Shown here one piece after another: positions 1,177 through 23,291 of a DNA stretch of 23,291 nt. The first letter of the stretch is position 1. Every line of letters starts with the position of its first letter. The notes below the pieces were generated by a model that saw only the letters and a program-made list of their open reading frames with translations, was not told where the DNA came from and searched no databases. Origin of the DNA: a virus; IMG/VR virus record IMGVR_UViG_3300018815_000426, positions 1-23,291 of that record, one strand, 5' to 3'. The position numbers were made by a program, and so were the translations under genes.

Positions 1177-1178
1177 CC

Positions 1179-8033: not shown

Positions 8034-8059
8034 CGCCCCCTCCGGCTGCCTCCGGGCCC

Positions 8060-8083
8060 TGGTGGGGGCCCTCATCCCCACCA
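8060..8083 (+). promoter_or_regulatory. Stem-loop abutting the tail-fibre start codon
   Basis: TGGTGGGG (8060-8067) pairs perfectly with CCCCACCA (8076-8083) around an 8-nt loop. The stem ends one base before the fibre ATG at 8085, and the only SD-like purine run (GGTGGGGG) lies inside the 5' arm. It occupies the single real gap (51 nt) between overlapping late genes. It could limit fibre translation or be an RNA processing site; no T-run follows, so it is not a classic terminator. Confidence 0.55.
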
Positions 8084-8084
8084 C

Positions 8085-10466: not shown

Positions 10467-10819
10467 CCTACGGGGCGAAGTTCTTTGACGCCTCCGGGAA
10501 TGTCACCTTCGACTCTTCACAAGAGCACACCTTGTTCCTCCTGGATGAGGTGTCGATACCGGCCGCATCAGTGGGGAGTGGGCTGACCTACAGCTACTCC
10601 GGGGCCATCGGGAAGAAGATTACCGCCTTCATCCAAAGCCCATATGGAGGCGACTACACGCCTGGCGAGAAGATTCAGCGTGCCCAAATCAGTTACCCCG
10701 GTGGGGTCCCAACAGTATCCGTAACCTTCGAAGACCCCGATGCCCTTGACGGCGCGGGGTATACCTACCCGAAGGCCAATGGGTATCTCTCAGTGTTTCT
10801 TACTGGAGCCTCTCAGTGA
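10463..10819 (+). CDS. Small tail-fibre-associated protein with YG-F-D-S module
   Basis: A 118-residue protein starting at a GTG that overlaps the fibre stop (GTGA). It begins MTYGAKFFDASGNVTFDSS, a module common in small proteins encoded just after phage tail-tip or fibre genes. The remainder is beta-rich (LFLLDEVSIPAASVGSG, AQISYPGGVPTVSVTFEDP). The module recurs at the start of the next gene and again inside it, so these are probably related distal tail proteins. Base composition falls noticeably from here to about 11690 relative to the flanking GC-rich genes, which suggests the tail-tip segment was exchanged. Exact role (receptor binding, fibre cap) is not shown. Confidence 0.62.
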   Translation: MTYGAKFFDASGNVTFDSSQEHTLFLLDEVSIPAASVGSGLTYSYSGAIGKKITAFIQSPYGGDYTPGEKIQRAQISYPGGVPTVSVTFEDPDALDGAGYTYPKANGYLSVFLTGASQ

Positions 10820-11691
10820 CCTATGGAATGCGGTTCACCAATTCTTCGAATATCACGACGATTAGTGACAATCAGAAGGCCTACGTCTACCTGGGGAAGT
10901 ACGGGCCGAACAATACGAGCGGCGAGTACACGGTGGACATCACCTGTGCCGGTTTCCCCATGGTGTTTATGAGCGTTCCTTACAACGTCACAGAAGGGGA
11001 CGGGGGGCATCCGGGCTCTGGTATCTATTACGGGGCCTACATCCGCTCCGGGGCCTATGTCCGCCGCATTGAGCACCTCGGAGGGTCCTCCTGGCGGATC
11101 AGCGTGGCGGTAATCAACGCCAGCTACTGGAAGGTGGCCGGAGCAGGGACAGGCACCGTGTCCCCGATTCCCACCACCCTTCGAGTATTCGGCCGACTGG
11201 ACCTGAATCACCCCTCGGGCATTAGCGGAAATCCCTACGGGATGCGTGTATGGGATTCGACAGGTGCCCTTGTGTTTGATTCGAATGGTCGAATGCTCCG
11301 CCTGGCCGGAAATACCTACGACACCGAGCTACTCCTGAAGAAGGATTACCCCGGGACCAGCACAGGCGACCCCAGGGCGGACTACAACTCCTATGACACG
11401 TCGGTATCCCTGCCTTTCTCGCTGAGTGGCAAGTCAATATGTGCGACATCCCGCAGCCTGGTGAGGCACTACGAGGCATCCCACGCGGAGTATTTCGACG
11501 GAACCTGGGAGTACACCTACAACACCTATGACTGGGCCTCCGCATATTGGGCAAACGGGAGCACGTTGTACTCCAGGAAGGTCCCCCACACCATCGGCAC
11601 GGAATCCTTCCCGTACACCCTAAACATCAGCAGCGCCGCGTCAGATACCTACACCCGCCTCGCATTTATCGACGATTCACAGTTCCCCTAA
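10816..11691 (+). CDS. Putative distal tail protein with two YG-F-D-S modules
   Basis: A 291-residue protein starting at GTG 10816, again overlapping the previous stop (GTGA). It begins MTYGMRFTNSSNITTISDN, matching the start of the preceding protein. A second copy of the module lies near residues 142-160 (YGMRVWDSTGALVFDSNG), dividing the protein into two related halves. It is rich in Tyr, Ser, Thr and Gly and predicted beta, as expected of a surface-exposed tip or receptor-binding protein. No enzyme motif is visible. GC content and third-position GC are lower than in neighbouring genes, suggesting separate ancestry. Confidence 0.58.
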   Translation: MTYGMRFTNSSNITTISDNQKAYVYLGKYGPNNTSGEYTVDITCAGFPMVFMSVPYNVTEGDGGHPGSGIYYGAYIRSGAYVRRIEHLGGSSWRISVAVINASYWKVAGAGTGTVSPIPTTLRVFGRLDLNHPSGISGNPYGMRVWDSTGALVFDSNGRMLRLAGNTYDTELLLKKDYPGTSTGDPRADYNSYDTSVSLPFSLSGKSICATSRSLVRHYEASHAEYFDGTWEYTYNTYDWASAYWANGSTLYSRKVPHTIGTESFPYTLNISSAASDTYTRLAFIDDSQFP

Positions 11692-12018
11692 ATGGCTCTC
11701 ATCAAACCCTTCGAGACACCTCAAAAGGTAACCGCCAGCTATCACAAGCTCCTCAAGGCGGAGTTCCACATTCCCAGCCAAACCATCGAGCTGGTCTTCG
11801 CGGTCTTCTACAGCGCCGAGGCGCGAGATAACGGCGGCTCCGTGCTGTGGCATGAGTACCTCAAGGTGCCCTTCAGCGCGCTCCAGGAGGACCCCCGAGT
11901 GGGCCTCTACCAGCTCGCGGAGTCCTACGAGAAGGGCTACCTGGCCGGTGCCTGGGCGGACGCCCCGCAGGCCCCGTCAGGACCCCTGCTGATTGCCCCT
12001 GAGCGGACTCCCGAGTGA
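11692..12018 (+). CDS. Hypothetical phage protein downstream of tail fibre
   Basis: A 108-residue protein of unknown function whose ATG follows the previous stop immediately. It starts MALIKPFETPQKVTASYHKL and continues with alternating hydrophobic strands (FHIPSQTIELVFAVFYSAEA) and a HEYLKVPFSAL segment. The C terminus is Pro/Ala-rich and likely disordered. The lower-GC patch ends near its start, since the second half is GC-rich again. Its last bases overlap the GTG of the next gene. The location suggests a structural or assembly role, but no known family was recognised. Confidence 0.6.
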   Translation: MALIKPFETPQKVTASYHKLLKAEFHIPSQTIELVFAVFYSAEARDNGGSVLWHEYLKVPFSALQEDPRVGLYQLAESYEKGYLAGAWADAPQAPSGPLLIAPERTPE

Positions 12019-12341
12019 ACGAGCTGCCCACCGCCCTGCGGCTGGGTGGCCTCGACTGGACCATCCACCAACGCACTTCACGCGCCATGGGCGGGAACCT
12101 GGGCCTGTGCCACAGCGACCGCCAGCGCATCGACATTTTGAAGACCCAGACCCCCGACTCCGCCGTGGACAGCCTGCTCCACGAGACCTTCCACGCAATC
12201 CTGCACTCGCAGGGCCGTGAGTACGGCGGCGACACCGAGGAGACCTATGTGCGCGCCCTGGCGACAGGCCTCCTCCAGTCCCTTCGAGACAACCCCGACT
12301 TCGCCCGCTGGCTCCTTACCTACCGACAACCCAAAGAATGA
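12015..12341 (+). CDS. HExxH metallopeptidase-like phage protein
   Basis: A 108-residue protein starting at GTG 12015 (GTGA overlap with the previous stop). It contains LLHETFHAI with His56-Glu57 and His60, the zinc-metallopeptidase HExxH signature, followed about 15 residues later by acidic residues (DTEETY, ~residues 73-76) that could supply the third zinc ligand of a gluzincin. The region before it (GGNLGLCHSDRQRIDI) resembles the strand preceding the active helix in minimal SprT- or ImmA-like peptidases. There is no signal peptide. Its position just before the holin could suggest a lysis role, but a cytoplasmic maturation or anti-host peptidase is equally possible. It ends in an ATGA overlap with the holin gene. 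Confidence 0.6.
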   Translation: MNELPTALRLGGLDWTIHQRTSRAMGGNLGLCHSDRQRIDILKTQTPDSAVDSLLHETFHAILHSQGREYGGDTEETYVRALATGLLQSLRDNPDFARWLLTYRQPKE

Positions 12342-12625
12342 ACACCTCCCCTGATAGCCCCGAGCTGCGCCTCGGACTGCTGGCCGCTGTTGGCGCCGCC
12401 ATCGGTGTTGGCAAACTGCTGGCCGGTGGCGAGCCCATCACGGCCCGCCTGGTCTTCGGCCGTGCCCTGGTCAGTGCCGGTCTCGGCGCAGCGGCCAGCG
12501 CCACGTCCCTCCTGTTCCCCACCGCTGACCCACTGGTCCTCTACGGCGTTGCCGCTGGCCTGGCTTCCGTGGGGACCAGCGCCCTGGAGTCCATCATGGC
12601 CCGCAAGGTGGGAGGCGGCCCGTGA
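12338..12625 (+). CDS. Holin-like small membrane protein
   Basis: A 95-residue protein starting at an ATG that overlaps the previous stop. Three hydrophobic segments are visible at about residues 11-30 (LRLGLLAAVGAAIGVGKLLA), 39-60 (FGRALVSAGLGAAASATSLL) and 66-86 (PLVLYGVAAGLASVGTSALE), with a short basic C terminus. Size, topology and location just before TerS match the holin slot (gene 17.5) of T7. It would form lesions in the inner membrane at the end of infection. No endolysin or Rz/Rz1 pair lies next to it in this window, so the muralytic partner must lie elsewhere. Confidence 0.72.
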   Translation: MNTSPDSPELRLGLLAAVGAAIGVGKLLAGGEPITARLVFGRALVSAGLGAAASATSLLFPTADPLVLYGVAAGLASVGTSALESIMARKVGGGP

Positions 12626-12843
12626 CCGGCCAAGCCACCAAGGACGCCCTGAACGCACTGCATGGTGAGTTCGCCAAGTCCCTCGCCCAGAAGCTGAAGG
12701 ACGGCACGGCCACTGCGGCCGACCTCAGCGTCATCCGTCAGTTCCTGAAGGACAACAACATCGAGGCCCTGTCGGTCCCCGGCAGCCCTCTGGGCGCCCT
12801 CACTGACGCCCTGCCCTTCGCAACCCAAGGCATCGGGCACTGA
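12622..12843 (+). CDS. Terminase small subunit (T7 gp18-like)
   Basis: A 73-residue protein starting at GTG 12622, overlapping the holin stop (GTGA). The segment TAADLSVIRQFLKDNNIEAL is the characteristic helical core of T7-like small terminases, followed by a short Pro/Gly-rich tail (VPGSPLGAL). It is a little shorter than T7 gp18 (89 residues). It would recognise concatemeric phage DNA and present it to TerL. The next gene follows with a 4-nt CTGA overlap, so both subunits are probably made in fixed proportion. Confidence 0.8.
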   Translation: MTGQATKDALNALHGEFAKSLAQKLKDGTATAADLSVIRQFLKDNNIEALSVPGSPLGALTDALPFATQGIGH

Positions 12844-14588
12844 ACACGGACCTGACCGTCACGGCCCACGCTGCAAAGCTGGCCGTTGATCCGGTCCTGG
12901 GCGACTTCCGCAACTTCATGTTTGTGGTGTGGAAGCACCTGGGGCTACCTGACCCGACCCCTGTTCAGTACGACATCGCGCACTTCCTCCAGCATGGCCC
13001 CAAGCGGGCCATCATCGAAGCCTTCCGGGGCGTGGGGAAGAGCTGGATCACCTCGGCCTTCGTGGTGTGGCATCTCCTCCGAGACCCCAACTGCAAGATC
13101 ATGGTGGTATCCGCCTCGAAGGACCGAGCGGACGCCTTCTCCACCTTCGTGAAGCGGCTCATCCACGAGCTGCCGATGTGCGCCCACCTGAAGGCCCGAC
13201 CAGGCCAACGGGACTCCAGCCTGTCCTTCGACGTTGGCCCTGCCAGGCCTGACCACTCACCATCCGTGAAGTCGGTAGGCATCACCGGCCAGCTCACGGG
13301 CTCCCGCGCCGACATCATCATTCCCGACGACGTGGAGGTGGTGGGCAACTCCATGACCCAGCTCATGCGAGACCGCCTCGCCACGCTGGTGCAGGAGTTC
13401 GACGCCATCCTGAAGCCCCTGCCGGGCAGCCGGATCGTCTACCTCGGGACCCCGCAGACCGAGATGACGCTGTACTCCGCACTGGAGCAGCGCGGCTACA
13501 TCATGCGCGTCTGGCCGGCGCGCTACCCGGGCCCCACCCAGGTGAACCGCTACGGTGAGCGCCTGGCCCCAATGATCCTGGAGATGCTTGCAGGGGACCC
13601 CTCACTGGGCACTGCATGCGCTGGCCGTGGGGCACCAACTGACCCCCGCCGGTTCGATGACCTGGACCTGATGGAGCGTGAGGCGTCCTACGGTCGCTCT
13701 GGCTTCTCCATGCAGTTCATGCTGGACCCGAGCTTCAGCGACATGGACAAGTTCCCGCTCAAGCTGGCGGACCTGATGGTCCTCGATTGCGACACCAAGA
13801 TGGGCCCTATCAAGGCCGTCTGGGCCACAAGCCCGGAGCTGGTGCGCAACGACCTCCCGACCGTGGGCCTGGCCGGAGACCGGCTGTATCGCCCCATGTG
13901 GCTCTCCAAGGAGAACTACGTGCCCTACACGGGGGTGGTCATGTCCATCGACCCGGCCGGCCGAGGCAGTGACGAGCTGGGCTATGCCATCGTGGCGATG
14001 CTCAACGGCTACCTCTTCGTCCTCCGGGTGAAGGGGATGAAGGGTGGCTACTCGGACGAGAACCTCCAGAAGCTGGCCGACGAAGCCAAGCGCTACGGGG
14101 TCAACCAGATCATCGTCGAGTCCAACTTCGGTGACGGCATGTTCACGAAGCTGCTGTCCCCGTTCCTGCTGCGGACGCACCCCTGTGCAATCGAGGAGAT
14201 TCACAGCTCGGTCCAGAAGGAGCGCCGCATCATCGACACCCTGGAGCCGGTCATGAACCAGCACAGGCTCATCGTGGACTCGAAGGTCATCTCGGAGGAC
14301 TTCGAGAACTACAACACCTACAGCCAGGAGATGCAGGCCCGCTACCAGCTCTTCTATCAGCTGACCCGCATAACCCGCGAGAAGGGCGCCCTAGCCAAGG
14401 ACGACCGCCTGGATGCTCTGGCCATGGCCGTGGCGTACTGGGTGGAGGTCATGGACAAGGACACCCAGCGGATTGAGCAGGACCACAAGGAGATGCTGCG
14501 CCAGGGGGAGATTGACCGCTTCATTGAGCTGGCCGGCGGGAACGCTCATCGGCCCTCCATGATTGCCGAGGAGTTCGACCTCTACTGA
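12840..14588 (+). CDS. Terminase large subunit (T7 gp19-like), probable CTG start
   Basis: The DNA-packaging ATPase/nuclease, closely similar to T7 gp19. Walker A is AFRGVGKS (Lys67, Ser68), Walker B lies in ADIIIPDDVE, and the motif DVGPARPDHSPSVKSVGITG is near-identical to T7. The RNase H-like nuclease shows MSIDPAGRGSDE, VESNFGDGMF and KDDRLDAL acidic residues. The first in-frame ATG (12918) would cut off GDFRNF, which aligns with T7 GDFVAF, and would leave 556 residues. No ATG, GTG or TTG exists between the upstream in-frame stop (12804) and 12918. CTG at 12840 overlaps the TerS stop as CTGA, like its ATGA/GTGA neighbours, and gives 582 residues against 586 in T7. The product is certain; the start is inferred. 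Confidence 0.9.
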   Translation: MNTDLTVTAHAAKLAVDPVLGDFRNFMFVVWKHLGLPDPTPVQYDIAHFLQHGPKRAIIEAFRGVGKSWITSAFVVWHLLRDPNCKIMVVSASKDRADAFSTFVKRLIHELPMCAHLKARPGQRDSSLSFDVGPARPDHSPSVKSVGITGQLTGSRADIIIPDDVEVVGNSMTQLMRDRLATLVQEFDAILKPLPGSRIVYLGTPQTEMTLYSALEQRGYIMRVWPARYPGPTQVNRYGERLAPMILEMLAGDPSLGTACAGRGAPTDPRRFDDLDLMEREASYGRSGFSMQFMLDPSFSDMDKFPLKLADLMVLDCDTKMGPIKAVWATSPELVRNDLPTVGLAGDRLYRPMWLSKENYVPYTGVVMSIDPAGRGSDELGYAIVAMLNGYLFVLRVKGMKGGYSDENLQKLADEAKRYGVNQIIVESNFGDGMFTKLLSPFLLRTHPCAIEEIHSSVQKERRIIDTLEPVMNQHRLIVDSKVISEDFENYNTYSQEMQARYQLFYQLTRITREKGALAKDDRLDALAMAVAYWVEVMDKDTQRIEQDHKEMLRQGEIDRFIELAGGNAHRPSMIAEEFDLY

Positions 14589-14615
14589 ATCGCTAGGGGA
14601 ATCAACGAGATAGGA

Positions 14616-14667
14616 CGGGGAGCGGCTAAAAGGTGGGTCCAAACCCTACCTCAAGCCGGATGCTCCC
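14616..14667 (+). other. Long imperfect stem-loop downstream of TerL
   Basis: Three nested helices are visible. GGGGAGC (14616-14622) pairs with GCTCCCC (14661-14667). GGCT (14623-14626) pairs with AGCC (14653-14656). AGGTGGGT (14630-14637) pairs with ACCC-T-ACCT (14642-14650, one bulged T) across a CCAA loop. Nineteen pairs in 52 nt, starting 28 nt after the TerL stop. A pyrimidine-rich stretch follows but no T-run, so it could be a transcript end, a 3' stabiliser, an RNase III-like processing site or a packaging-related structure. Confidence 0.6.
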
Positions 14668-14706
14668 CTCCTTCTATCCTTCTAGTTACCTTAGGGTGGC
14701 CTTGGG

Positions 14707-15066
14707 CTACTCCCCCAGTTTCCTGGGACGGGGCAGCTTCCAGGCGCCTAGGGTGGCCTGCTGGATCAGCACGTCAGCCAGGGCACTCATCTTCAGGTCT
14801 TGCGTCCCTTTGTCCGCACACAGGGAATTGACCATCGACGTGAACAGCGCTGTGTTGGACGACGGCTCCGGCAAAGGCCACGGGCTCAGGTCCCACAGAG
14901 CCGGAGTCACCTTCTCTTCGACGTGGCGGACCATCATCAGCCGCTCGGCCAGCTTGCCCTTGTTCAGGTCCCGACAGGTCGCCTCCCCGGCGGTCTGGTA
15001 GGACACCTGCGCTGCTGCCCCTACGCAGAACAGAGCCAGGGCCACTGCTACAAGACTTCCCCTCAT
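14707..15066 (-). CDS. Secreted small protein with two cysteines (probable moron)
   Basis: A 119-residue protein on the strand opposite the phage operons. Residues 1-19 (MRGSLVAVALALFCVGAAA) form a Sec signal peptide, probably cut before Gln20; Cys14 lies inside it and is not in a good lipobox. The mature part has two cysteines, Cys31 in ATCRDLNKGK and Cys83 in NSLCADKG, able to form one disulfide. Spacing and size recall HdeA/HdeB-type periplasmic chaperones, but this is only a visual resemblance. The ribosome site AGGAGG lies just before the ATG. An opposite-strand, independently transcribed gene at the late/early boundary is typical of a moron expressed in the lysogen, such as a fitness or superinfection-exclusion factor. 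The exact family is unknown. Confidence 0.68.
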   Translation of the reverse strand: MRGSLVAVALALFCVGAAAQVSYQTAGEATCRDLNKGKLAERLMMVRHVEEKVTPALWDLSPWPLPEPSSNTALFTSMVNSLCADKGTQDLKMSALADVLIQQATLGAWKLPRPRKLGE

Positions 15067-15110
15067 GTGCCCTCCTGGTTCCCTTGAGGGTCTCAGTTTA
15101 GAGTCCAGGC

Positions 15111-15124
15111 ATGTGGACCCACAT
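15111..15124. promoter_or_regulatory. 14-bp palindrome upstream of the secreted-protein gene
   Basis: ATGTGG-AC-CCACAT is a perfect inverted repeat 45 bp upstream of the minus-strand start codon, where the -35 region of that gene would lie (a weak -10, TAAACT on the minus strand, is at 15095-15100). It could be an operator for the secreted protein. It also contains the ATG of the small plus-strand ORF, so chance is possible. Confidence 0.35.
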
Positions 15125-15296
15125 CGTCAACTCTCTGGCCGGCCTGCTGATCTACGTCATGCTGGCCTGGGCTGTCCTCAAGGTGTGCCAAAAGGTGCCT
15201 AGGGGTGGTCGGGAGCCCAGCGACTATCTGCCACAAAAATGTGAGACCCCATCTGATGAGCGAGACGGCCCAGGTTCCCCCCGTGGCCCCCTCTGA
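15111..15296 (+). CDS. Possible small single-pass membrane protein
   Basis: A 61-residue ORF with one clear transmembrane helix at about residues 6-26 (VNSLAGLLIYVMLAWAVLKV) and a polar, Pro/Gly-rich tail. It starts divergently 44 bp from the secreted-protein gene. The ribosome site is weak (only a short purine stretch near 15100-15107). It could be a small phage membrane effector or a chance ORF in GC-rich DNA; the hydrophobic helix is the main argument for it. Confidence 0.38.
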   Translation: MWTHIVNSLAGLLIYVMLAWAVLKVCQKVPRGGREPSDYLPQKCETPSDERDGPGSPRGPL

Positions 15297-15381
15297 TCCA
15301 CCAGGCGGGCAGCCGGCCGGACACCTCAAGGGCACCTCGCGGCCCACCTCAGGGCACCAGAAGGGCACCGAGCAGCGCTAA
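15256..15381 (+). CDS. Possible 41-residue ORF spanning GGGCACC repeats
   Basis: An ATG-initiated ORF of 41 residues overlaps the end of the previous one in another frame. It is Pro/Gly/His-rich (QVPPVAPSDPPGGQPAGH) and encodes short KGT/SGH echoes of the GGGCACC repeats. No good ribosome site is visible. It is listed because it covers an otherwise gene-free stretch; the repeats may matter as DNA rather than as protein. Confidence 0.2.
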   Translation: MSETAQVPPVAPSDPPGGQPAGHLKGTSRPTSGHQKGTEQR

Positions 15382-15552
15382 GTGGTTGATTCATAAGGGC
15401 ATGCCCGGGATTGCCTATCCGTGCTGCACCATCCGATAGCCCCTCACGTTGCCCTCATGGGTTGACTGAGGGGCTTTTTGTTGACCCGCCGGTCATTAAC
15501 TCGTGTCCTTCCCAGGGCACTTGCTTTTTTGCCTAGGGCACCCTGAGGCACC
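15330..15552 (+). repeat. Cluster of GGGCACC short direct repeats
   Basis: GGGCACC occurs at 15330-15336, 15352-15358, 15363-15369 and 15536-15542, with shorter forms GGGCAC at 15515-15520 and GGCACC at 15547-15552, all on the plus strand. The cluster straddles the terminator at 15438-15479. T7 carries arrays of a heptamer next to its terminal repeats; these might play a similar role near the genome end, but spacing is irregular. Confidence 0.4.
15438..15479 (+). terminator. Intrinsic terminator between late and early modules
   Basis: AGCCCCTCA (15438-15446) pairs perfectly with TGAGGGGCT (15467-15475), an inner CCC/GGG stem (15452-15454 with 15459-15461) can form in the loop, and TTTTT (15475-15479) follows at once. 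This is a strong rho-independent terminator for plus-strand transcription. It would end rightward late transcripts before the early promoter. Confidence 0.85.
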
Positions 15553-15658
15553 ACAAGGCCACAGCAAGGCCCCTATTAGCCCCGCCAAGCCCTTCTAGCA
15601 CCCTCCCGAGTGCTACCCCACATGGGCAGCATCAAGCGGCCTCCTAGCTCCCTGCGGA

Positions 15659-15687
15659 TTGACAAACGGTCCGATTCGTCGTACAGT
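15659..15687 (+). promoter_or_regulatory. Sigma70-type early promoter
   Basis: A consensus -35 TTGACA (15659-15664) is followed after exactly 17 bp by TACAGT (15682-15687), 4 of 6 matches to TATAAT. Transcription would start near 15694 and run into the small membrane protein and the early genes. A second TTGACA lies at 15701-15706 without a good -10. The spacer carries repeats described separately. Confidence 0.7.
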
Positions 15688-15700
15688 CCGACCCGTCGTA
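15669..15700 (+). repeat. Tandem 15-bp operator-like repeats over the early promoter
   Basis: GTCCGATTCGTCGTA (15669-15683) and GTCCGACCCGTCGTA (15686-15700) differ at two positions and are spaced 17 bp apart. The first sits in the promoter spacer and reaches the -10; the second covers the start site. This is a typical layout for a repressor. The bases leading into the first copy, CAAACGGTCCGA (15664-15675), are identical to a 12-mer in the attachment-site repeats. Confidence 0.6.
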
Positions 15701-15734
15701 TTGACAAACCCGCAACACCCTGAGGACCCCCCAA

Positions 15735-15920
15735 ATGATCCGCTTAATGTTCCCCCTGCTCTGCATCCTGTCGGCCATCACCTCGGCCCTGACGCTGGAC
15801 CTTGCATGGTCCTACATGTTCACCACAGGTCACGGCCTGCATCCTGTCGTCGCCCTGACGGCCTGGGCTGTGACCTGGGGAGCCACCTGGGGTGGATATC
15901 GGGTCTGTACTTCGGCCTAA
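15735..15920 (+). CDS. Small two-helix membrane protein, first early gene
   Basis: A 61-residue protein with two hydrophobic segments, residues 1-24 (MIRLMFPLLCILSAITSALT) and about 36-54 (HPVVALTAWAVTWGATWGG). The ribosome site GAGGA (15722-15726) is 8 nt from the ATG. It is the first gene after the early promoter, so it would be expressed at once on infection or in the lysogen. Small early membrane proteins of phages often block superinfection or modulate the host envelope, but no family was recognised. Confidence 0.6.
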   Translation: MIRLMFPLLCILSAITSALTLDLAWSYMFTTGHGLHPVVALTAWAVTWGATWGGYRVCTSA

Positions 15921-15956
15921 TCGTCCGATTCTTCCAACCATCCACAGGATCAAACC

Positions 15957-16478
15957 ATGCTCAAGACTGTCCGTATCGGCACCCTCAAGGGCTTCGACCG
16001 CTCCCTAGGCGATGCCCGCGCCTCTCTCTTCTGCCGCATCTCGGTGACCCCTGACGGGCGCCTGTCCATCACCGGAGTGGAGGGCCCGAGGAACGGGGGC
16101 AACTGCGCGGGGGGCTGCGGGCAGGTCGTCATGCACGCCTGGGAAGTCGCCCAGTACGCGCCCGGGTGGGATGCCGAGAAGGTCGCCGAGTTCCGCGCAG
16201 TGTGGGACCGCTGGCACCTCAACGACATGACAGCCGGCAGCCCGGCCCAGGAGGCCCACCTCCGCGCCCATCCGGTGGCCTTCAAGTACCCGGAGAGCCA
16301 CTACACGAAGGCATGCGAGGCCTTGGCCGCCGCTGGTCTGAACCCTGACCCGGCCCACCTGGTCAACGGGAAGCCCTACAGCTACGGGTCCGCCTGGCTG
16401 CGTGAAGAGCTGCCCGCTGAGGTCGTCGCCTGGCTTGAGGCCCTGCCTGATTCCGACCTGGCCCCGGCCTGGGTCTGA
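15957..16478 (+). CDS. Conserved phage protein of unknown function (WDRWHLNDM motif)
   Basis: A 173-residue soluble protein. It contains FRAVWDRWHLNDMTAGSPAQ at about residues 76-95 and ends with YGSAWLREELPAEVVAWLEALP, two features seen together in a protein widespread in phages and mobile elements. Three cysteines are close together (GNCAGGCG and the preceding FCRIS), but they do not make a clear zinc knuckle. Start ATG 15957 follows an AGGA at normal distance. The next gene, also small and conserved, is commonly its neighbour. Its function is unknown; early position suggests a host-takeover or lysogeny accessory role. Confidence 0.75.
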   Translation: MLKTVRIGTLKGFDRSLGDARASLFCRISVTPDGRLSITGVEGPRNGGNCAGGCGQVVMHAWEVAQYAPGWDAEKVAEFRAVWDRWHLNDMTAGSPAQEAHLRAHPVAFKYPESHYTKACEALAAAGLNPDPAHLVNGKPYSYGSAWLREELPAEVVAWLEALPDSDLAPAWV

Positions 16479-16489
16479 AGGGGGACGAC

Positions 16490-16747
16490 ATGCGCCAGTC
16501 AATCGCCACCCACACCGCGAACCCGACCAACTCCAGGGGCACCCGAGTCATCGCGCGCAGCTCGGGCGGTCTCCGCCTGGTGGTCGCCTGGGATCACGCC
16601 CTGGACACCGAGCAGAACCACAAGCGCGCCGCCCACCTCCTCACGGAGCGCCTGGGGTGGCCCGGCCGCTGGGTCGGCGGTGCATCGCCCACGGGCTTTG
16701 TGTTCGTGAACGTCACCGGGAAGCCGGGCGACGAGTTCACGAACTGA
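16490..16747 (+). CDS. Small conserved phage protein of unknown function
   Basis: An 85-residue protein with an excellent ribosome site (AGGGGG, 6 nt before the ATG). The N terminus contains NPTNSRGTRVIARSSGGLRL, the middle a Tyr-poor helical DHALDTEQNHKRAAHLLTER segment, and the end GASPTGFVFVNV. This layout (TNSRG...A..GG, H..AA..L, G.P.GYVFVF) is familiar from small accessory proteins of phages and integrative elements that often accompany the WHLNDM protein. It lies 11 nt after that gene, so the two are co-transcribed. No molecular function is known to me. Confidence 0.72.
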   Translation: MRQSIATHTANPTNSRGTRVIARSSGGLRLVVAWDHALDTEQNHKRAAHLLTERLGWPGRWVGGASPTGFVFVNVTGKPGDEFTN

Positions 16748-16897
16748 GGGGCCCTGCCGTGCTGCTCCGTCAAGCCCTTGAGACCGCCCGCCGGTCACCC
16801 ATCCCGGCCCACGTCGAGCCCGTCCAGCGCCATGCCTGACGGCCACCTTCTAGCGCGCTGGCTGTCCACCTTACGCGCCCTGGCGCCCCACCGAGTC

Positions 16898-16948
16898 CAG
16901 CCCATAGGCCCCTCCACCTGGAGCCCTTGGGGTGCGCTTTTGCACTGC
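16898..16948 (+). repeat. Two-copy structured intergenic element, copy 1
   Basis: It starts CAGCCCATAGGCCCCT, continues with a CTCC/GGAG hairpin and ends GGTGCGCTTTTGCACTGC, an 18-bp block identical in copy 2 (18259-18306). The last block forms a GTGC-GCTTTT-GCAC stem-loop. It ends 18 nt before the ParB-like start codon. The 219-nt gap between 16747 and 16967 holds nothing else convincing. It may be a phage promoter, leader or regulator-binding RNA. Confidence 0.7.
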
Positions 16949-16966
16949 CTCACGGAGTCATGACAC

Positions 16967-18238
16967 ATGGCCCCAATCGTCAACACCCCGGACCAGGAGA
17001 AAGCCATCAGGTCCCTCATGGCCTCCAGGCGCCGCGAGTGGACCTCCGATGGTCGGACGGGCGCTGACTTCCCCAAGTGGAAGCCCGGCATGAAGACCTC
17101 GGACTACATCCAGGTCCACAGCATCGGGAAGAACGTCCTTCCCTACGACTTACCCGCCCTGGCCCGTCCCGCGCCCTTCGAGGCCCCCGAGGGCGAACCC
17201 GTGGTGGCCCAGGCCGGACCCCTTCGGGTGGGCCTTCCACCTTCATCCCCAATCACTGAGGAACCTGCAATGAACACCGACAAGAACACCCCGCCCGTTG
17301 ACCTGGCCGCCGAGGGCCTGCAATCCGTCCCCCTGGAGTTTGCCGAGGAGGTGGCCCAGGGCAACGTGAAGGCAGCCATGAAGACCTCGGGCGCCACCTC
17401 GGGCGACCTGTGGCGCGTCCCCCTGGACGAAATCCACGTCCTCCCCGGCCTGAACGTGCGCGGCATGACGGACGAGTACGCGGCCCACATCGAGCGCACC
17501 GCCCAGAGCATCCTGGCCGAGGGCTTCTATCCCGACAAGGCCCTGGCGGTCTTCGTGGGTGAGGACGGGAAGGTCTACCTCCGGGACGGGCACACGCGCC
17601 TCCTGGCCGCCAAGCGGGCCCGCGAGCTGGGCGCACAGCTCACCGTCCTGCCCTGCGCGACTGCCCCGAAGGGCTCGACCATGGAGGACTTCACCATCGG
17701 TCTGGTCAAGTCCAACGAAGGCCGGCCGCTGCGCCCCATCGAGGTGGCCGTGGTCATGAAGCGGCTGGCCGGCTGGGGCTGGGACTCGAAGCGCATCGCC
17801 GAACGCCTGAACTACACGGTGGCCTACGTGGACGAGCTGCTGGGCCTCCTGGCAGCCCCTAAGGCCCTGGTTGCCCTGGTGGAAGCCGGCAAGGTCTCGA
17901 CGGACACCGCAACGAAGGCCATCAAGACCATGGGACCCACGAAGGCGGCCGAGGTCATCACGACGGCCAGCGCAGCGAACACCAAGAAGGGCGGCAAGGT
18001 CAACCCGTCCGACATCGGCCAGTCCAAGGCCCAGCTTGCCGTCGCATCGGCCAAGAAGAAGGAAGCGGCGAACCCGGCCAACGCCCTGCCCGAGACCGCC
18101 CAGGCGCCCACGAAGCCGGCCAAGAAGGACGCCTCAGGGGACCCCTTGAAGGCCCTGCGCGCGGTCTTCGACGACCCGAACTTCAACAAGCTGTCCGACA
18201 AGGCCCAGTCCGCCGTCCTGGCCGTGCTGAACCCCTGA
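16967..18238 (+). CDS. ParB-like phage protein with N-terminal extension
   Basis: A 423-residue protein. Residues ~150-235 form a ParB/sulfiredoxin-like N-terminal domain: VPLDEIHVLPGLNVR, then VYLRDGHTRLLAAKRA with the DGHxR motif at 207-211. Residues ~268-295 (GWDSKRIAERLNYTVAYVDE) form a helix-turn-helix. Residues 340-390 are a Lys/Ala-rich linker, followed by a short helical C terminus. No ParA is nearby, so a transcriptional or nuclease-type role is as likely as partition. Residues 1-101 (EKAIRSLMASRRREW..DFPKWKPGMKTSDYI) look like a separate small phage protein fused in frame. An internal ATG at 17270 has its own strong ribosome site and would yield a 322-residue form. The start at 16967 has GGAG 9 nt upstream. 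Confidence 0.8.
   Translation: MAPIVNTPDQEKAIRSLMASRRREWTSDGRTGADFPKWKPGMKTSDYIQVHSIGKNVLPYDLPALARPAPFEAPEGEPVVAQAGPLRVGLPPSSPITEEPAMNTDKNTPPVDLAAEGLQSVPLEFAEEVAQGNVKAAMKTSGATSGDLWRVPLDEIHVLPGLNVRGMTDEYAAHIERTAQSILAEGFYPDKALAVFVGEDGKVYLRDGHTRLLAAKRARELGAQLTVLPCATAPKGSTMEDFTIGLVKSNEGRPLRPIEVAVVMKRLAGWGWDSKRIAERLNYTVAYVDELLGLLAAPKALVALVEAGKVSTDTATKAIKTMGPTKAAEVITTASAANTKKGGKVNPSDIGQSKAQLAVASAKKKEAANPANALPETAQAPTKPAKKDASGDPLKALRAVFDDPNFNKLSDKAQSAVLAVLNP
17258..17272 (+). promoter_or_regulatory. Internal ribosome site and alternative start in the ParB-like gene
   Basis: GAGGA (17258-17262) precedes an in-frame ATG (17270-17272) by 7 nt. Initiation here gives MNTDKNTPPVDLAAEGL and removes the 101-residue N-terminal segment while keeping the whole ParB-like and helix-turn-helix part. 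The site is at least as strong as that of the upstream start, so both products may be made. Confidence 0.6.
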
Positions 18239-18258
18239 ACCAGGTCAGCCCTTGAGTT

Positions 18259-18306
18259 CAGCCGATAGGCCCCTTCGGGGGCTCTTCGGGTGCGCTTTTG
18301 CACTGC
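18259..18306 (+). repeat. Two-copy structured intergenic element, copy 2
   Basis: CAGCCGATAGGCCCCT is followed by a GGCCCC-TTCG-GGGGCT hairpin with a stable UUCG-type loop, then the 18-bp block identical to copy 1, with its GTGC/GCAC stem-loop. It ends 16 nt before the start of the 47-residue membrane protein and begins 21 nt after the ParB-like stop. Hairpin sequence differs from copy 1 but pairing is kept. Confidence 0.7.
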
Positions 18307-18322
18307 ACGACGAGGCCGCTTC

Positions 18323-18466
18323 ATGCGCTCCTTCCGTACCACCTACAGCCCCGCCCAGGCCACCTCAAGGGCCCGAGCAGGCGCAATCATGGCCGGCGTG
18401 GCGGCTGGCATGTGGCTCTTCGGGCTGCCCATACTGGTCTACCTCATGAACCACCCCGGGAGGTAG
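18323..18466 (+). CDS. 47-residue single-pass membrane protein
   Basis: A short ORF beginning MRSFRTTYSPAQATSRARAG, a basic N terminus, followed by one hydrophobic helix at about residues 21-42 (IMAGVAAGMWLFGLPILVYL) and a short HPGR tail. GAGG lies 7 nt before the ATG, and structured element copy 2 sits just upstream exactly as copy 1 sits before the ParB-like gene. Positive residues before the helix predict an inside N terminus. Such tiny membrane proteins often act in exclusion or membrane stress, but nothing specific can be said. Confidence 0.55.
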   Translation: MRSFRTTYSPAQATSRARAGAIMAGVAAGMWLFGLPILVYLMNHPGR

Positions 18467-18530
18467 GAAATCACACCCATCAGCGCGCACCCACGGGGGT
18501 GGCTCAGTCAGTGAGCTACCGGCAACTTAG

Positions 18531-18574
18531 AGTCAGGTCTTGTCCCGCTTCTGGGGGACCTCTGACTTCTTTCT
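18531..18574 (+). terminator. Possible terminator after the early operon
   Basis: AGTCAGGTC (18531-18539) pairs with GAC-CT-CTGACT (18557-18567) with a 2-nt bulge; a CCC/GGG pair can extend inside the loop. The T-rich stretch TTCTTTCT follows. The T-run is interrupted, so termination is plausible but not certain. It would separate the ParB-like operon from the regulator/integrase operon. Confidence 0.4.
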
Positions 18575-18807
18575 GCTACCACCAACTGGGCGCGCCGTTC
18601 CACACGTTTGTAGGACCGTCGAGTAAAAATTCACGGGAACCCCCGGAATGCGGGACCTACGAACTAGGGATAACGGTCCGATGCACTGACACTTTACGGC
18701 GTTGGTTCACAAAACCTGACACCCTGGTGGAACGGTCTTATGGCTGGATTTCTAGCTATAGGCGGTGGAGCTTCCGGCGACCGTAACGGCCGGAGGGCGC
18801 AGCGATG

Positions 18808-18847
18808 GTCCGAACATACGGACATACACTGTGTTTTTGACTATGTT
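18808..18847 (+). promoter_or_regulatory. Probable promoter and operator of the MarR-like/integrase operon
   Basis: CGGACA (18819-18824) and TATGTT (18842-18847) are 17 bp apart, each matching the sigma70 consensus at 4 of 6 positions. The inverted repeat GTCCG-AACATA-CGGAC (18808-18823) overlaps the -35, a position suited to repression, possibly by the MarR-like protein itself. The predicted start site is next to the ribosome site at 18855-18860. Confidence 0.45.
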
Positions 18848-18864
18848 GGATAGCGGAGGAACGC

Positions 18865-19245
18865 ATGTCAGAACAGAACACACACCGCATAAGCGCGAAG
18901 GTCACAGCCGCCGCGACCCTGGTTGCACTAGAGGAACTTGCCCGAGCGGTGGGGGACCTCTCAGCTTCCAAGGTCCGTGTACTGCTGCACCTTTACGCCC
19001 ATGGCGAGATTTACCAGCAGAACCTGGAGAAGGTTTCAGGCGTCGAGAAATCAGCGACCAGCACCCTCCTCCTGGCCCTGGGCCGTGGCAACCCAAAGAA
19101 GCCCGGCCTGGGCCTGGTGGAGCAGGAACGCGACTTCGTAGACGCGCGTCAACACGTTGTCCGCCTGACGGCCCGGGGAAAGGCAGTCATGGAGGGCGTT
19201 ATGGCTACGGCAGCCACCTCATTGTCATCAGCGAGAACAGCTTGA
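18865..19245 (+). CDS. MarR-like winged-helix regulator
   Basis: A 126-residue DNA-binding protein. SASKVRVLLHLYAHGEIYQQ and NLEKVSGVEKSATSTLLLAL form the helix-turn-helix (about residues 32-72), the wing is GLVEQERDFVDARQHVVRLT (about 80-100), and LTARGKAVMEGVM is the typical exit helix of MarR proteins. GGAGGA lies 4 nt before the ATG. It is shorter than classic MarR proteins at the N terminus and C terminus. Its place directly upstream of int suggests a lysogeny or excision regulator, perhaps the phage repressor. The gene contains GGGAAAG in frame at 19176-19182, and the -1 frame from there stays open to 19463. Confidence 0.75.
   Translation: MSEQNTHRISAKVTAAATLVALEELARAVGDLSASKVRVLLHLYAHGEIYQQNLEKVSGVEKSATSTLLLALGRGNPKKPGLGLVEQERDFVDARQHVVRLTARGKAVMEGVMATAATSLSSARTA
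19176..19182 (+). other. Candidate -1 frameshift site GGGAAAG
   Basis: In the MarR-like frame this reads G-GGA-AAG, the X-XXY-YYZ form used by lambda tail genes G/GT. A -1 slip continues with GGC at 19182 and gives GSHGGRYGYGSHLIVISENS and onward to the stop at 19463, a fusion of about 199 residues (106 plus 93). A weak 5-bp stem (TGGCT/AGCCA, 19202-19216) lies 19 nt downstream. No strong pseudoknot is evident. Confidence 0.4.
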
Positions 19246-19463
19246 AGTTTGTCTACAGCAACGGCCTCTACGGCACCCGACCCTTAGGACACAGGGATGT
19301 CTACCACCGCAAGCCCGGCTGGCTCTTCATCGAGCTGGGCGACCGGACCCTGGAGGTGGACTACGACGAGAAGGCCCTCTTACCCCGACTCCTGGCCGCA
19401 CTGCGGCGCCCCAGTGAGTCATCTGAAGAACCCGACCAGCAACCAGCAGGAGGAACCGAATGA
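19242..19463 (+). CDS. Small protein between regulator and integrase, TTG start or frameshift product
   Basis: A 73-residue ORF if read from TTG 19242, which overlaps the regulator stop as TTGA, in line with the ATGA/GTGA/CTGA overlaps elsewhere in this phage. No ATG or GTG is available. The sequence is protein-like: KFVYSNGLYGTRPLGHRDVY, then GWLFIELGDRTLEVDYDEKA and a helix LLPRLLAALRR, ending in a Glu/Gln-rich tail. The same frame also looks coding upstream of the TTG (YGYGSHLIVISENS), favouring production as a -1 frameshift extension of the regulator. It ends in an ATGA overlap with int. The fold is not recognised; it may be a directionality factor or the second half of a split regulator. 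Confidence 0.55.
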   Translation: MKFVYSNGLYGTRPLGHRDVYHRKPGWLFIELGDRTLEVDYDEKALLPRLLAALRRPSESSEEPDQQPAGGTE

Positions 19464-20551
19464 ACATCCGCTACTTCGAGAAGAACGGCAAATGGTGGCT
19501 CGACATCCGGGGGCCAGGCGTCCCAGGTGGCCGCGAACGCAAGTCCACGGGGACCTCTGACCGCGCTGAGGCAGAGCTGAGGGCGCCGGGGATCATCGCC
19601 GCCGTCCTCACGGCCACAGCTCCGTCCAGCGGTCCGAAAAATCAAACCGTCCGCGCGCCGAGTGGCCCCACCCTGAAGGAAGCCTTCGGTCTCGCGATGA
19701 AGTCCCGCGAGTCCTGGATTCAGTCCAAGGACAAGGAGACGCTGAACTACACCTTCGGGAACCTCCGGGCGCCCGAGGACACCCCCATGGTCAGCTTCAC
19801 GCGCGACTATGTGCGCGACCTGCGCGCCAAGTGGCTGCTGGAGCCTGGAAAACGCAAGGGCTCGACCCTGAGCCCCTCGGCCGTCAACTCGCGGCTGTCC
19901 ATGCTGTCGGTCCTGCTGGAGGCATGCGACCTGCCGCCCCACAACGTCAAGCACCTGAGCGTCAAGGGAACCCGACGTACCCGCCGGATGGCCGAGCGCG
20001 AGATTGAGGCCATGCAGGCCTGGCTGTGCGCCAACGCCAAGCGCAAGGGCGCGCTCACCCTAGTGGACCTCATCACGGTGGCCCTGGAGACCGCAGCGCG
20101 GGAGGACGAGATGGTCAGCCTACCGGCCGGCGACGTTGACATCCAGGGCGCCCGAGTGACCTTCCGCGACACGAAGAACGGCGAGACCCGCACCGTGCCC
20201 CTACCGCCGGCCTCGCTGAAGATTCTGGAGCGGCGCATCAACAACGAAGGCGGCCCGTTCGCTGACCTGTCGGTGAGCCAGCTCAAGACGCTATGGGCCG
20301 AGGGGCGCGAAGCCTTGGGCCTGAAGGAGGACCATCAGTTCGTCTTCCACACGCTGCGCCATGAGGCCCTGAGCCGCCTGGCTGATGCCAACGTGAACGC
20401 CTTCGTGATTCAGGCCATAGGCGGCCACTCCAACATCACGACGACTCAAATCTACGTGAAGGCCAGCGAGGCAGCCATGCGCGACGGCCAGGAAGCGGTC
20501 TCCCAGCAAGCCCTGCTCCGTGCTGCTCAGCCTTCCCAGGTGATGCAGTGA
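19460..20551 (+). CDS. int: Tyrosine-type phage integrase
   Basis: A 363-residue site-specific recombinase. The N-terminal 60 residues (RYFEKNGKWWLDIRGPGVPG) form an arm-binding-like beta domain, residues ~70-165 a core-binding SAM-like domain, and ~175-350 the catalytic domain. Catalytic residues are visible: Arg214 (ETAARED), Lys239 (TKNGETR), His297 and Arg300 (HTLRH), His323 (GHSNITT) and nucleophile Tyr332 (TQIYVKAS). The start at 19460 is set by a perfect AGGAGG (19448-19453) and the ATGA overlap with the upstream stop. It ends 46 bp from the tRNA-Cys core it evidently used. Nucleotides 19640-19653, inside its 5' part, match the repeats beside the attachment site, hinting at arm binding or autoregulation. 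Confidence 0.95.
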   Translation: MNIRYFEKNGKWWLDIRGPGVPGGRERKSTGTSDRAEAELRAPGIIAAVLTATAPSSGPKNQTVRAPSGPTLKEAFGLAMKSRESWIQSKDKETLNYTFGNLRAPEDTPMVSFTRDYVRDLRAKWLLEPGKRKGSTLSPSAVNSRLSMLSVLLEACDLPPHNVKHLSVKGTRRTRRMAEREIEAMQAWLCANAKRKGALTLVDLITVALETAAREDEMVSLPAGDVDIQGARVTFRDTKNGETRTVPLPPASLKILERRINNEGGPFADLSVSQLKTLWAEGREALGLKEDHQFVFHTLRHEALSRLADANVNAFVIQAIGGHSNITTTQIYVKASEAAMRDGQEAVSQQALLRAAQPSQVMQ

Positions 20552-20555
20552 GATT

Positions 20556-20603
20556 CGGACCGTTTGATTGTTCGTACGGTTTGATTTTCCGTACGATGGA
20601 TTT
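20556..20603 (+). repeat. 17-bp-spaced repeats beside the attachment core
   Basis: CGGACCGTTTGATT (20556-20569), CGTACGGTTTGATT (20573-20586) and the weaker CGTACGATGGATTT (20590-20603) recur every 17 bp, the last running into the tRNA anticodon. Units 20562-20578 and 20579-20595 match at 15 of 17 bases. CGTACGG and CCGTACG (20573-20579, 20589-20595) also form a perfect 7-bp inverted repeat. These are likely integrase or accessory-factor binding sites. Confidence 0.65.
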
Positions 20604-20610
20604 GCAATCC
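20598..20610. other. Attachment core (right junction) in the tRNA-Cys anticodon stem-loop
   Basis: GGATT-TGC-AATCC is a 5-bp inverted repeat around three bases, equal to the conserved part of the anticodon stem and loop of tRNA-Cys. tRNA identity ends just left of it and phage repeats begin. Anticodon stem-loops are a known target class for tyrosine integrases. The exact crossover cannot be set without the left junction or attP. Confidence 0.75.
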
Positions 20611-20637
20611 GGGGCATAACCGCTTTGCTATCGCGCC
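20598..20637 (-). pseudogene. tRNA-Cys(GCA), 5' fragment cut by prophage
   Basis: Reading the minus strand from 20637: acceptor strand GGCGCGA, TA, a D-arm with GCAAAGCGGTTATGC, then the anticodon stem-loop with GCA at 20605-20603. This follows E. coli tRNA-Cys closely over 40 nt. After position 40 the expected stem completion, T-arm (GGTTCGA) and acceptor 3' strand are missing and phage repeats follow. As it stands no functional tRNA can be made from this end. It lies 87 nt downstream of tRNA-Gly in the same direction, the Gly-Cys order seen in other proteobacteria. Confidence 0.85.
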
Positions 20638-20675: not shown

Positions 20676-20701
20676 GAAAATGGGAAGCCTGGGCTTCCCA
20701 T
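20676..20701 (-). terminator. Terminator-like hairpin after tRNA-Gly
   Basis: ATGGGAAGCC (20680-20689) and GGCTTCCCAT (20692-20701) are perfectly complementary, so the minus-strand transcript folds into a tight stem ending in ATTTTCG. The T-run is short (4), so read-through into tRNA-Cys would be partial, consistent with the downstream tRNA lying on the same transcript. Confidence 0.55.
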
Positions 20702-20724: not shown

Positions 20725-20800
20725 TGGAGCGGGATAAGAGACTCGAACTCTCGACCTATACCTTGGCAAGGTATCGCTCTACCAACTGAGCTAATCCCGC
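20725..20800 (-). tRNA. tRNA-Gly(GCC)
   Basis: A complete 76-nt tRNA on the minus strand including an encoded CCA (20727-20725). The acceptor strands GCGGGAT and ATCCCGC pair fully; the D-arm has GCTCAGTTGGTAGAGC; the anticodon loop TTGCCAA gives GCC on an ATACC/GGTAT stem; the T-arm has GTTCGAGTC. It decodes GGC/GGT glycine codons. It is intact, so the prophage target was the next tRNA downstream. Confidence 0.98.
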
Positions 20801-20835: not shown

Positions 20836-20865
20836 ATTGTAACCCGATTTTTAGCCGGATGACAA
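20836..20865 (-). promoter_or_regulatory. Promoter of the tRNA-Gly / tRNA-Cys unit
   Basis: On the minus strand TTGTCA (20865-20860) and TACAAT (20841-20836) are 18 bp apart, 5 of 6 matches each. Transcription would start near 20829 and reach tRNA-Gly after about 29 nt. The promoter begins only 12 nt after the lon stop, and no terminator separates them. Confidence 0.72.
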
Positions 20866-20876: not shown

Positions 20877-23291
20877 TCAGTGAGGCACAACCGTGCTCTT
20901 GGCCGCAGCCTCTTCCGGCTTGGCCGCCGCGACGGCGACTTCCTCGTCCGGCAAAGGCTGAGGCATGGTTTCCAGCGCAACCTCCAGCACACGCTCGATC
21001 CAGCGGACCGGGACGATCTCGAGATGGTTCTTCACGTTCTCGGGGATGTCCTGCAAGTCCTTGACGTTGTCCTCAGGAATCATGACGGTCTTGATGCCGC
21101 CACGATGGGCTGCAAGCAGCTTTTCCTTCAGGCCGCCGATGGCAGTGACCTCGCCGCGCAACGTGATCTCGCCGGTCATCGCGACGTCCGCGCGCACCGG
21201 GATGCCGGTCAGTGCAGACACGAAGGCAGTGGTCATCGCCGCACCCGCGCTCGGGCCGTCCTTTGGAGTGGCACCGTCGGGCACGTGGACGTGCACGTCG
21301 CGCTTCTCGAAGACCTCGTCCTTGATGCCCAGGCGTCGGGCCCGTGAACGCACCACGGTGCGAGCAGCTTCGACAGACTCCTTCATCACGTCGCCCAGCG
21401 AGCCGGTGCGAATGATGTTGCCCTTGCCCGGCATTGCGGTGGCTTCGATGGTCAGCAGATCACCGCCCACCTCGGTCCACGCGAGGCCGACGACTTGGCC
21501 GACCTGGTTCTTCTTCTCGGCACGACCGAAGTCGTACTTGCGCACGCCGAGGAAGTCGTTGAGGTTGTCCTCGGTGACGGTGACCTTGCCTTCGTAGGTC
21601 TTGAGCTGGATGCCCTTGACGACCTTGCGGCAGATCTTGGACATCTCGCGCTCAAGCGAGCGCACGCCGGCTTCACGGGTGTAGTAGCGGATCACGCCAC
21701 GCACGGCCGATTCGGTGACGTCGAGCTCCTCGTCCAGAACGCCGTTGTTCTTGCGTTGCTTGGGCAGCAGGTAGGTCTGCGCGATGTTGACCTTCTCGTC
21801 CTCGGTGTAACCCGACAGACGGATGACTTCCATCCGGTCCAGCAGGGCCGGCGGGATGTTCATCGAGTTGGACGTGGCGACGAACATCACGTCCGACAGG
21901 TCGAAGTCGACCTCAACGTAATGGTCGCCAAAGGTGTGGTTCTGCTCAGGGTCCAGCACTTCCAGCAGCGCCGACGACGGATCGCCGCGGAAGTCCATGC
22001 CCAGCTTGTCGATCTCGTCGAGCAGGAACAGCGGGTTGCGCGTGCCGATCTTGGACAGGCTCTGCAGCACCTTGCCCGGCATGGAGCCGATGTAGGTACG
22101 GCGGTGGCCACGGATCTCGGCCTCATCGCGCACGCCGCCCAGCGCCATGCGGATGAACTTGCGACCAGTGGCGCGGGCCACGCTCTGGCCGAGCGAGGTC
22201 TTGCCGACCCCCGGGGGGCCAACCAGGCACAGGATGGGCGCCTTGACCTTGTCGACTCGCTGCTGCACCGCGAGATATTCAAGGATGCGGTCCTTGACCT
22301 TCTCGAGGCCGTAGTGGTCTTCGTTCAGCACGTCCTCGGCGTTCTTGAGGTCGTGCTTGATCTTGGTCTTCTTACTCCAGGGCAGGTTGACCAACGTATC
22401 GATGTAGTTGCGCACCACCGTCGCTTCGGCGGACATGGGCGACATCAGCTTGAGCTTCTTCAACTCAGCGTCGGCCTTCTTGCGCGCCTCCTTGGGCATG
22501 CGGGCCGCGACGATCTTCTTCTCGAGCTCCTCCATGTCGGCGCCTTCTTCGCCGTCGCCGAGTTCCTTCTGGATGGCCTTGACCTGCTCGTTGAGGTAGT
22601 ACTCGCGCTGGCTCTTTTCCATCTGGCGCTTGACGCGGCCGCGGATGCGCTTTTCGACCTGAAGGATGTCGACTTCGTGCTCAAGCAGGTCGAGCAGCTT
22701 CTCCAGGCGCTTGGCCACTTCAGCCAGATCCAGCACGGCCTGCTTGGCGTCCAGCTTGAGCGGCAGGTGAGCGGCGATGGTGTCGGCCAGGCGGCCCGGA
22801 TCGTCGATGCCGCCGATGGACGTGAGGATCTCGGGCGGAATCTTCTTGTTGAGCTTGACGTACTGGTCGAACTGCTGCGTGACGGCGCGGCGCAGGGCCT
22901 CGACTTCGGGCGCATGCTCGGTCTCGGGCGGGATGGGCGTGACCTCGGCAACGAAGTGCTCACCCGGCTCGGTAATGGACAGAGTCGTGGCGCGCTGCAG
23001 GCCTTCGACCAGCACCTTCACGGTGCCGTCGGGCAGCTTGAGCATCTGCAGGATGCTGGACACGCAGCCAACCTCGAACATGTCTTCGGGCTTGGGCTCG
23101 TCCTTGCCGGCAGCCTTCTGGGCGACCAGCATGATCTGGCGGCCGGCTTCCATCGCGGCCTCAAGCGCCTTGATGGACTTGGGCCGCCCGACGAACAGCG
23201 GGATGACCATGTGCGGGAATACGACAACGTCACGCAGCGGCAACAGCGGCAACGTGATCGGGTCGGAGGGAAGGATGGGATGTCCGGACAT
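20877..23291 (-). CDS. lon: ATP-dependent Lon protease
   Basis: A full-length 804-residue Lon, starting at ATG on the last base of the window (reverse strand). The N-terminal LON substrate-binding domain begins LPLLPLRDVVVFPHMVIPLF; a coiled region (EKSQREYYLNEQVKAIQKEL) follows; the AAA+ module has Walker A GPPGVGKTS and Walker B LFLLDEIDKLG; the protease domain has Ser681 in KDGPSAGA and Lys724 in GGLKEK, the catalytic dyad. It degrades misfolded and regulatory proteins in the cytoplasm. The Ala/Glu-rich C-terminal tail (DEEVAVAAAKPEEAAAK) is a species-specific extension. It is a host gene, transcribed toward the prophage, and gives the genomic context (lon, then a tRNA-Gly/tRNA-Cys unit). 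Confidence 0.98.
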   Translation of the reverse strand: MSGHPILPSDPITLPLLPLRDVVVFPHMVIPLFVGRPKSIKALEAAMEAGRQIMLVAQKAAGKDEPKPEDMFEVGCVSSILQMLKLPDGTVKVLVEGLQRATTLSITEPGEHFVAEVTPIPPETEHAPEVEALRRAVTQQFDQYVKLNKKIPPEILTSIGGIDDPGRLADTIAAHLPLKLDAKQAVLDLAEVAKRLEKLLDLLEHEVDILQVEKRIRGRVKRQMEKSQREYYLNEQVKAIQKELGDGEEGADMEELEKKIVAARMPKEARKKADAELKKLKLMSPMSAEATVVRNYIDTLVNLPWSKKTKIKHDLKNAEDVLNEDHYGLEKVKDRILEYLAVQQRVDKVKAPILCLVGPPGVGKTSLGQSVARATGRKFIRMALGGVRDEAEIRGHRRTYIGSMPGKVLQSLSKIGTRNPLFLLDEIDKLGMDFRGDPSSALLEVLDPEQNHTFGDHYVEVDFDLSDVMFVATSNSMNIPPALLDRMEVIRLSGYTEDEKVNIAQTYLLPKQRKNNGVLDEELDVTESAVRGVIRYYTREAGVRSLEREMSKICRKVVKGIQLKTYEGKVTVTEDNLNDFLGVRKYDFGRAEKKNQVGQVVGLAWTEVGGDLLTIEATAMPGKGNIIRTGSLGDVMKESVEAARTVVRSRARRLGIKDEVFEKRDVHVHVPDGATPKDGPSAGAAMTTAFVSALTGIPVRADVAMTGEITLRGEVTAIGGLKEKLLAAHRGGIKTVMIPEDNVKDLQDIPENVKNHLEIVPVRWIERVLEVALETMPQPLPDEEVAVAAAKPEEAAAKSTVVPH

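Follow-up and report, generated by a model that had tools for sequence, protein, structure and literature searches.

When a prophage splits a tRNA gene and the junction that holds the 5′ half of the gene is not restored, where does the lysogen obtain the tRNA? This question is raised by one end of a partial virus record from IMG/VR, the whole of which (23,291 bp) is the window analysed here; the left end of the prophage is cut by the end of the contig. Positions 1–19459 are occupied by T7-like prophage genes on the plus strand, recognized with Pfam and PHROGs, including those for internal virion proteins (210–8030), a tail fibre (8085–10466), a T7-type terminase large subunit (12918–14588) and a ParB-like protein (16967–18238), the last lying near the integrase of an integrating phage. 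A gene for a tyrosine integrase of 363 aa follows on the same strand (19460–20551; PF00589, E 8.5e-22; PHROG integrase, E 8.3e-40), with its 3′ end toward the att site. The terminase, internal virion proteins and integrase of the window, together with an RNA polymerase from the relative described below, identify a temperate T7-like phage (Autographiviridae).

The right end of the window is host DNA, comprising lon and an intact tRNA-Gly(GCC) gene, both on the minus strand. The C-terminal 804 codons of lon (20877–23291; Lon domains by Pfam) and the tRNA-Gly gene (20725–20800; ARAGORN and Rfam), which is the first gene of the split tRNA array, flank the native promoter of this array (TTGTCA-18 bp-TACAAT; 20836–20865, minus strand). 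This promoter, found by a consensus scan, scored 12.1 against a mean of 4.3 for shuffled sequences, is largely conserved across 12 related loci, and has stayed on the upstream side, next to the integrase end of the prophage. The C-terminal 65 aa of Lon were 95% identical to Pelomonas sp. Root1237 and 83–92% identical to several other Roseateles/Pelomonas proteins, and because of this identity the host was taken to be a relative of Roseateles/Pelomonas.

Between the integrase and tRNA-Gly genes, the minus strand from 20637 to 20598 reads GGCGCGATAGCAAAGCGGTTATGCCCCGGATTGCAAATCC, which matches nt 1–40 of tRNA-Cys(GCA) in relatives of the host at 40 of 40 positions. These 40 nt span the acceptor 5′ strand, the D-arm and the complete anticodon stem-loop, and correspond to the host side of attR plus the common att core. 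Chance cannot reasonably account for such a match (for the equivalent fragment, E is 2.7e-14 in a genome of 4.6 Mb). From nt 41 on the sequences part, the window having ATCGTACGGAAAATCAAACCGTACG... where the intact relatives have GGTTAGTCCGGTTCGACTCCGGATCGCGCCTCCA. Comparison with relatives, in which an intact tRNA-Cys is identical over nt 1–40 and differs from nt 41, thus bore out the initial annotation, which had read the minus strand as tRNA-Cys up to the anticodon stem-loop and then as phage DNA. Its coordinates (20552–20637) were too wide for the tRNA part, which is limited to 20598–20637; the remaining 46 bp (20552–20597) are phage DNA between the integrase stop at 20551 and the fragment. 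It had also held that the 3′ part of a tRNA is what phages usually supply, which is right, and that the junction with the 5′ half is not restored here. We found that no 3′ half follows: ARAGORN and Rfam called the neighbouring tRNA-Gly(GCC) alone in the window and no tRNA in the phage part that is present, and the side holding the host 5′ half is without a T-arm or acceptor 3′ strand, which rules against the ordinary 3′-restoring layout. The 40-nt match might instead have been a fragment borne by the phage; however, upstream of it the native order (tRNA-Gly, promoter and lon) is retained, and it is therefore a displaced piece of the host rather than a phage-borne copy.

The phage arm of this junction (20552–20597) contains two 17-nt direct repeats (20554–20570 and 20571–20587), detected by a repeat search, which account for the "phage repeats" noticed earlier. 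A dyad, CGTACGG/CCGTACG, adjoins the core, and its counterpart in the relative described below is CGTACTG/CAGTACG, both arms having changed together. The direct repeats and the dyad are probably integrase-binding sites. On the host side, the gap between tRNA-Gly and tRNA-Cys holds a hairpin at 20680–20701 (GGGAAGCC..GGCTTCCC, with T's after it) that is conserved at the same place in related loci. It might serve in attenuation or in RNA processing; a terminator-like reading was also considered.

In related genomes, lon, tRNA-Gly and tRNA-Cys are followed in the intact locus by tRNA-Leu(UAA), usually with one or two more tRNA-Gly genes in between, and no promoter-like sequence stood out in the gap between tRNA-Gly and tRNA-Cys of these loci. 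Exactly one tRNA-Cys match was present in 18 of 20 genomes of the genus; one genome had none, and the other, G001 (a MAG labelled Comamonadaceae SCNH_6), had a complete gene and a 40-nt fragment. Judged by these matches, tRNA-Cys is a single-copy gene in the genus. One of the two outcomes proposed in the initial annotation, that the split gene is inactivated and another host tRNA-Cys covers the need, is disfavoured by this count. The window record ends before the left junction and would by itself allow such an outcome, but the single match in 18 genomes, the two exceptions just named and the rebuilt gene in G001 together make it extremely improbable.

The locus of G001 (L090) lacks tRNA-Cys at its usual place, and its alignment with the window continues into phage DNA. 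On this 319-kb contig a complete prophage of 42.9 kb occupies the same site, with host sequence on both sides. The two integrases are 81% identical and the shared collinear stretches 70–84% identical in DNA, which points to a phage that is related to, yet distinct from, that of the window. It was the one close relative of the window prophage among 401 genomes of the family and 20 of the genus; integrase searches and the junction pattern returned no relatives from IMG/VR with the queries used, and the host intergenic pattern had no match in the genome contigs.

The G001 prophage provides both junctions. The same 40-nt 5′ fragment lies on its integrase side (C2:55116–55155), and at the far end there is a complete tRNA-Cys (C2:98058–98131) that is 100% identical to the tRNA-Cys of the genus; behind it come two host tRNA-Gly genes and then a tRNA-Leu gene that is interrupted. 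The fragment in the window is identical to both junctions over all 40 nt. The sequence common to attL and attR in G001 is exactly tRNA nt 1–40, and the flanks differ just before nt 1, where the phage TCAGTTAGTT replaces the host flank GGTTTACGGC, and from nt 41, where the phage TTCGTAC replaces GGTTAGT. Since attL and attR share tRNA nt 1–40, the attP of this phage carries the 5′ half of the tRNA. G001 thus displays the whole 5′-restoring layout, with the host 5′ tDNA fragment upstream, the complete tDNA downstream in the same orientation and the integrase between them, and the window displays the fragment and the integrase side of it. The rebuilt gene was the one tRNA-Cys among all 40 tRNA genes read in G001, a MAG that may be incomplete, so that another could be unassembled. 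On the host side of the rebuilt array, an insert of some 220 nt appears to break the anticodon loop of the tRNA-Leu(UAA) gene (L194:3810–4124), which is uninterrupted in relatives. Known group I introns sit at this position and one was suspected here, but Rfam did not recognize it.

These observations are very probably explained by integration of a temperate T7-like phage at tRNA-Cys through an attP that includes nt 1–40, with the gene rebuilt at the far end; this arrangement is seen in G001, and for the host of the window the left junction is deduced from it. A tyrosine recombinase would join attP to the tRNA-Cys gene within the common 40 nt, most likely with crossover in the anticodon loop, and the integrase may use the arms of the anticodon stem as core sites. 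In G001, the host 5′ half thus displaced lies beside int, and a hybrid tRNA-Cys, composed of phage nt 1–40 and host nt 41–74, stands at the end away from int. By homology with G001, the same structure would be expected at the left end in the host of the window. The relative therefore supports the proposal of the initial annotation that the phage brings the 5′ half along and that a complete tRNA-Cys is restored at the left end; the window itself stops short of that junction.

Another way to lose the junction is tRNA-dependent lysogeny, in which the insertion leaves tRNA-Cys broken and a complete tRNA-Cys, encoded by the phage at another place in the prophage, takes over. This process exists in mycobacteriophages (PMC10865867), a likely tRNA-Cys case was found in an unrelated IMG/VR phage (G405, see below), and the left half of the prophage, absent from the window, could in principle encode a tRNA. 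However, that process involves a core of ~10 bp, no rebuilding and a complete phage tRNA of the same isotype, whereas in G001 the core shared by attL and attR has 40 nt and tRNA-Cys is rebuilt exactly. Besides, no tRNA was called by ARAGORN or Rfam in the phage part of the window, and the G001 prophage had no tRNA-Cys match other than the rebuilt gene and the short fragment. We consider this process improbable here. An assembly artefact, in which a phage contig was falsely joined to a bacterial lon/tRNA contig through the common 40 nt, was also considered, as the attP form of the phage would hold the same 40 nt and a mixed sample could give such a join. It is highly improbable given that the same host–phage junction occurs in the independent 319-kb MAG contig with host DNA on both sides, and such a join would still imply a 5′ half in attP.

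If integration with rebuilding of tRNA-Cys at the far end is accepted, the question becomes one of transcription. The rebuilt tRNA-Cys and the tRNA-Gly and tRNA-Leu genes behind it would be separated from the native promoter by ~43 kb and placed after phage DNA, and a promoter within phage DNA would have to drive them. In G001, 376 bp of phage DNA precede the rebuilt tRNA-Cys and reach to the start codon of the adjacent gene, which codes for a single-subunit RNA polymerase (PF00940, E 5.9e-106). Since the array is cut off from its native promoter, a promoter in these 376 bp is required if the lysogen makes tRNA-Cys. The polymerase gene is divergent from the tRNA; because it points away, its RNA would not cross the tRNA, and readthrough from this gene was rejected as the source of tRNA-Cys RNA. 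In simple sigma-70 scans of the 376-bp segment, the best promoter score was not above that of shuffled sequence (P 0.37); the candidate that makes most sense by eye is a TATACT hexamer, which lies 130 bp upstream of the rebuilt tRNA.

Many GGGGCACC-like repeats are present at L194:3199–3407, in the stretch that separates the rebuilt tRNA from the phage RNA polymerase gene, and similar GGCACC or GTCACC repeats are found at the equivalent position in L303 and in the L308 group. The GGGGCACC-like repeats are possibly integrase arm sites.

As to the suggestion that the tRNA is driven by phage transcription and placed under prophage control, phage DNA does precede the rebuilt gene, but the polymerase gene next to it points the other way and no sigma-70 score in the 376 bp exceeded the shuffles. 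Prophage control of tRNA-Cys expression is plausible by position alone. A more specific idea, which appears doubtful at present, is that a divergent promoter in the 376-bp segment transcribes tRNA-Cys and the following tRNA genes in the lysogen, under regulation shared with lysogeny. If this were true, the prophage would govern how much of an essential single-copy tRNA is available, and its loss or induction would make itself felt in translation.

Most elements integrated in tRNA genes keep the tRNA on its native promoter, whereas here the sole detected tRNA-Cys has been moved off it, and the rebuilt gene and those behind it must be expressed from DNA brought by the phage. The locus is therefore a clear test case for how a 5′-restoring phage keeps an essential tRNA expressed, and also for whether host tRNA supply is tied to phage regulation in temperate T7-like phages, which have att beside the RNA polymerase gene.

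The 5′-restoring type is uncommon but already known, and the phage of the window adds a member to it. In the Islander collection, 159 of 3,919 mapped islands (about 4%) had a 5′ tDNA fragment (PMC4383910), and a passage of a thaumarchaeal survey, citing Zhao & Williams 2002, describes 5′-restoring elements as considerably less frequent (PMC6563490). As in the Islander 5′-fragment islands, it is the 5′ part of the tRNA gene that the element restores, the host 5′ fragment stays upstream and the core includes the anticodon loop; the arrangement is the same in kind, although here the element is a T7-like phage and the gene is tRNA-Cys of Roseateles.

Loci with a tRNA-Cys 5′ half were also surveyed in IMG/VR. 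Complete tRNA-Cys was found in 72 of 73 loci, and the remaining one was truncated. In this case (G405, IMGVR_UViG_3300032212_000061; L300:76–115; L301:8753–8829 and 8902 onward), an unrelated phage is joined to the host tRNA-Cys 5′ half through a core of ~13 nt (GGATTGCAAATCC), and a complete, divergent tRNA-Cys lies ~70 nt from attP. This core cannot rebuild the tRNA, and the arrangement is a different one; by analogy, it looks like the tRNA-dependent lysogeny described for actinobacteriophages (PMC10865867).

In all temperate T7-like phages examined, the att site lies between int and the RNA polymerase gene. For example, in the T7-like cyanophages S-TIP37 and P-SSP7, which did not form stable lysogens, a 39-bp att motif in this position matches the first half of a host tRNA (PMC8776855), as in our phages; however, the tRNA there is tRNA-Leu rather than tRNA-Cys, and in S-TIP37 the tRNA half is on the int strand, toward the RNA polymerase gene, a polarity opposite to that of the window and G001 phages. 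The polarity found here, with the tRNA between the int and RNA polymerase genes and on the strand opposite both, is shared by Rhizobium phage Pasto and Limnohabitans phage YIMV22061 (Autographiviridae). Both differ in having a complete tRNA-Leu and distant integrases (about 29–31%); the terminase of YIMV22061 is 59% identical to that of the window. Other T7-like prophages, G415/G409 at tRNA-His and G406/G407 at a tRNA of the Lys type, have related RNA polymerases (42% and 67–68%, respectively) and the same att position. In contrast to our phages, these prophages look ordinary, with the 3′ half involved: in G415 a complete tRNA-His lies on the int side and the RNA polymerase side holds a 3′ half of tRNA-His, and the att region of G407 and G406 contains the 3′ half of a tRNA (tRNA-Lys or similar). 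Judged from these sequences, the half of the tRNA that is carried (5′ or 3′) varies among related T7-like prophages. Finally, in pTN3-like integrative elements of archaea (PMC8371274), attB likewise falls within the 5′ half of the tRNA gene, and the recombinant tRNA is expressed from element DNA; in these elements it is transcribed from the integrase promoter, whereas in our case the tRNA and RNA polymerase genes diverge and the tRNA is located at the end away from int.
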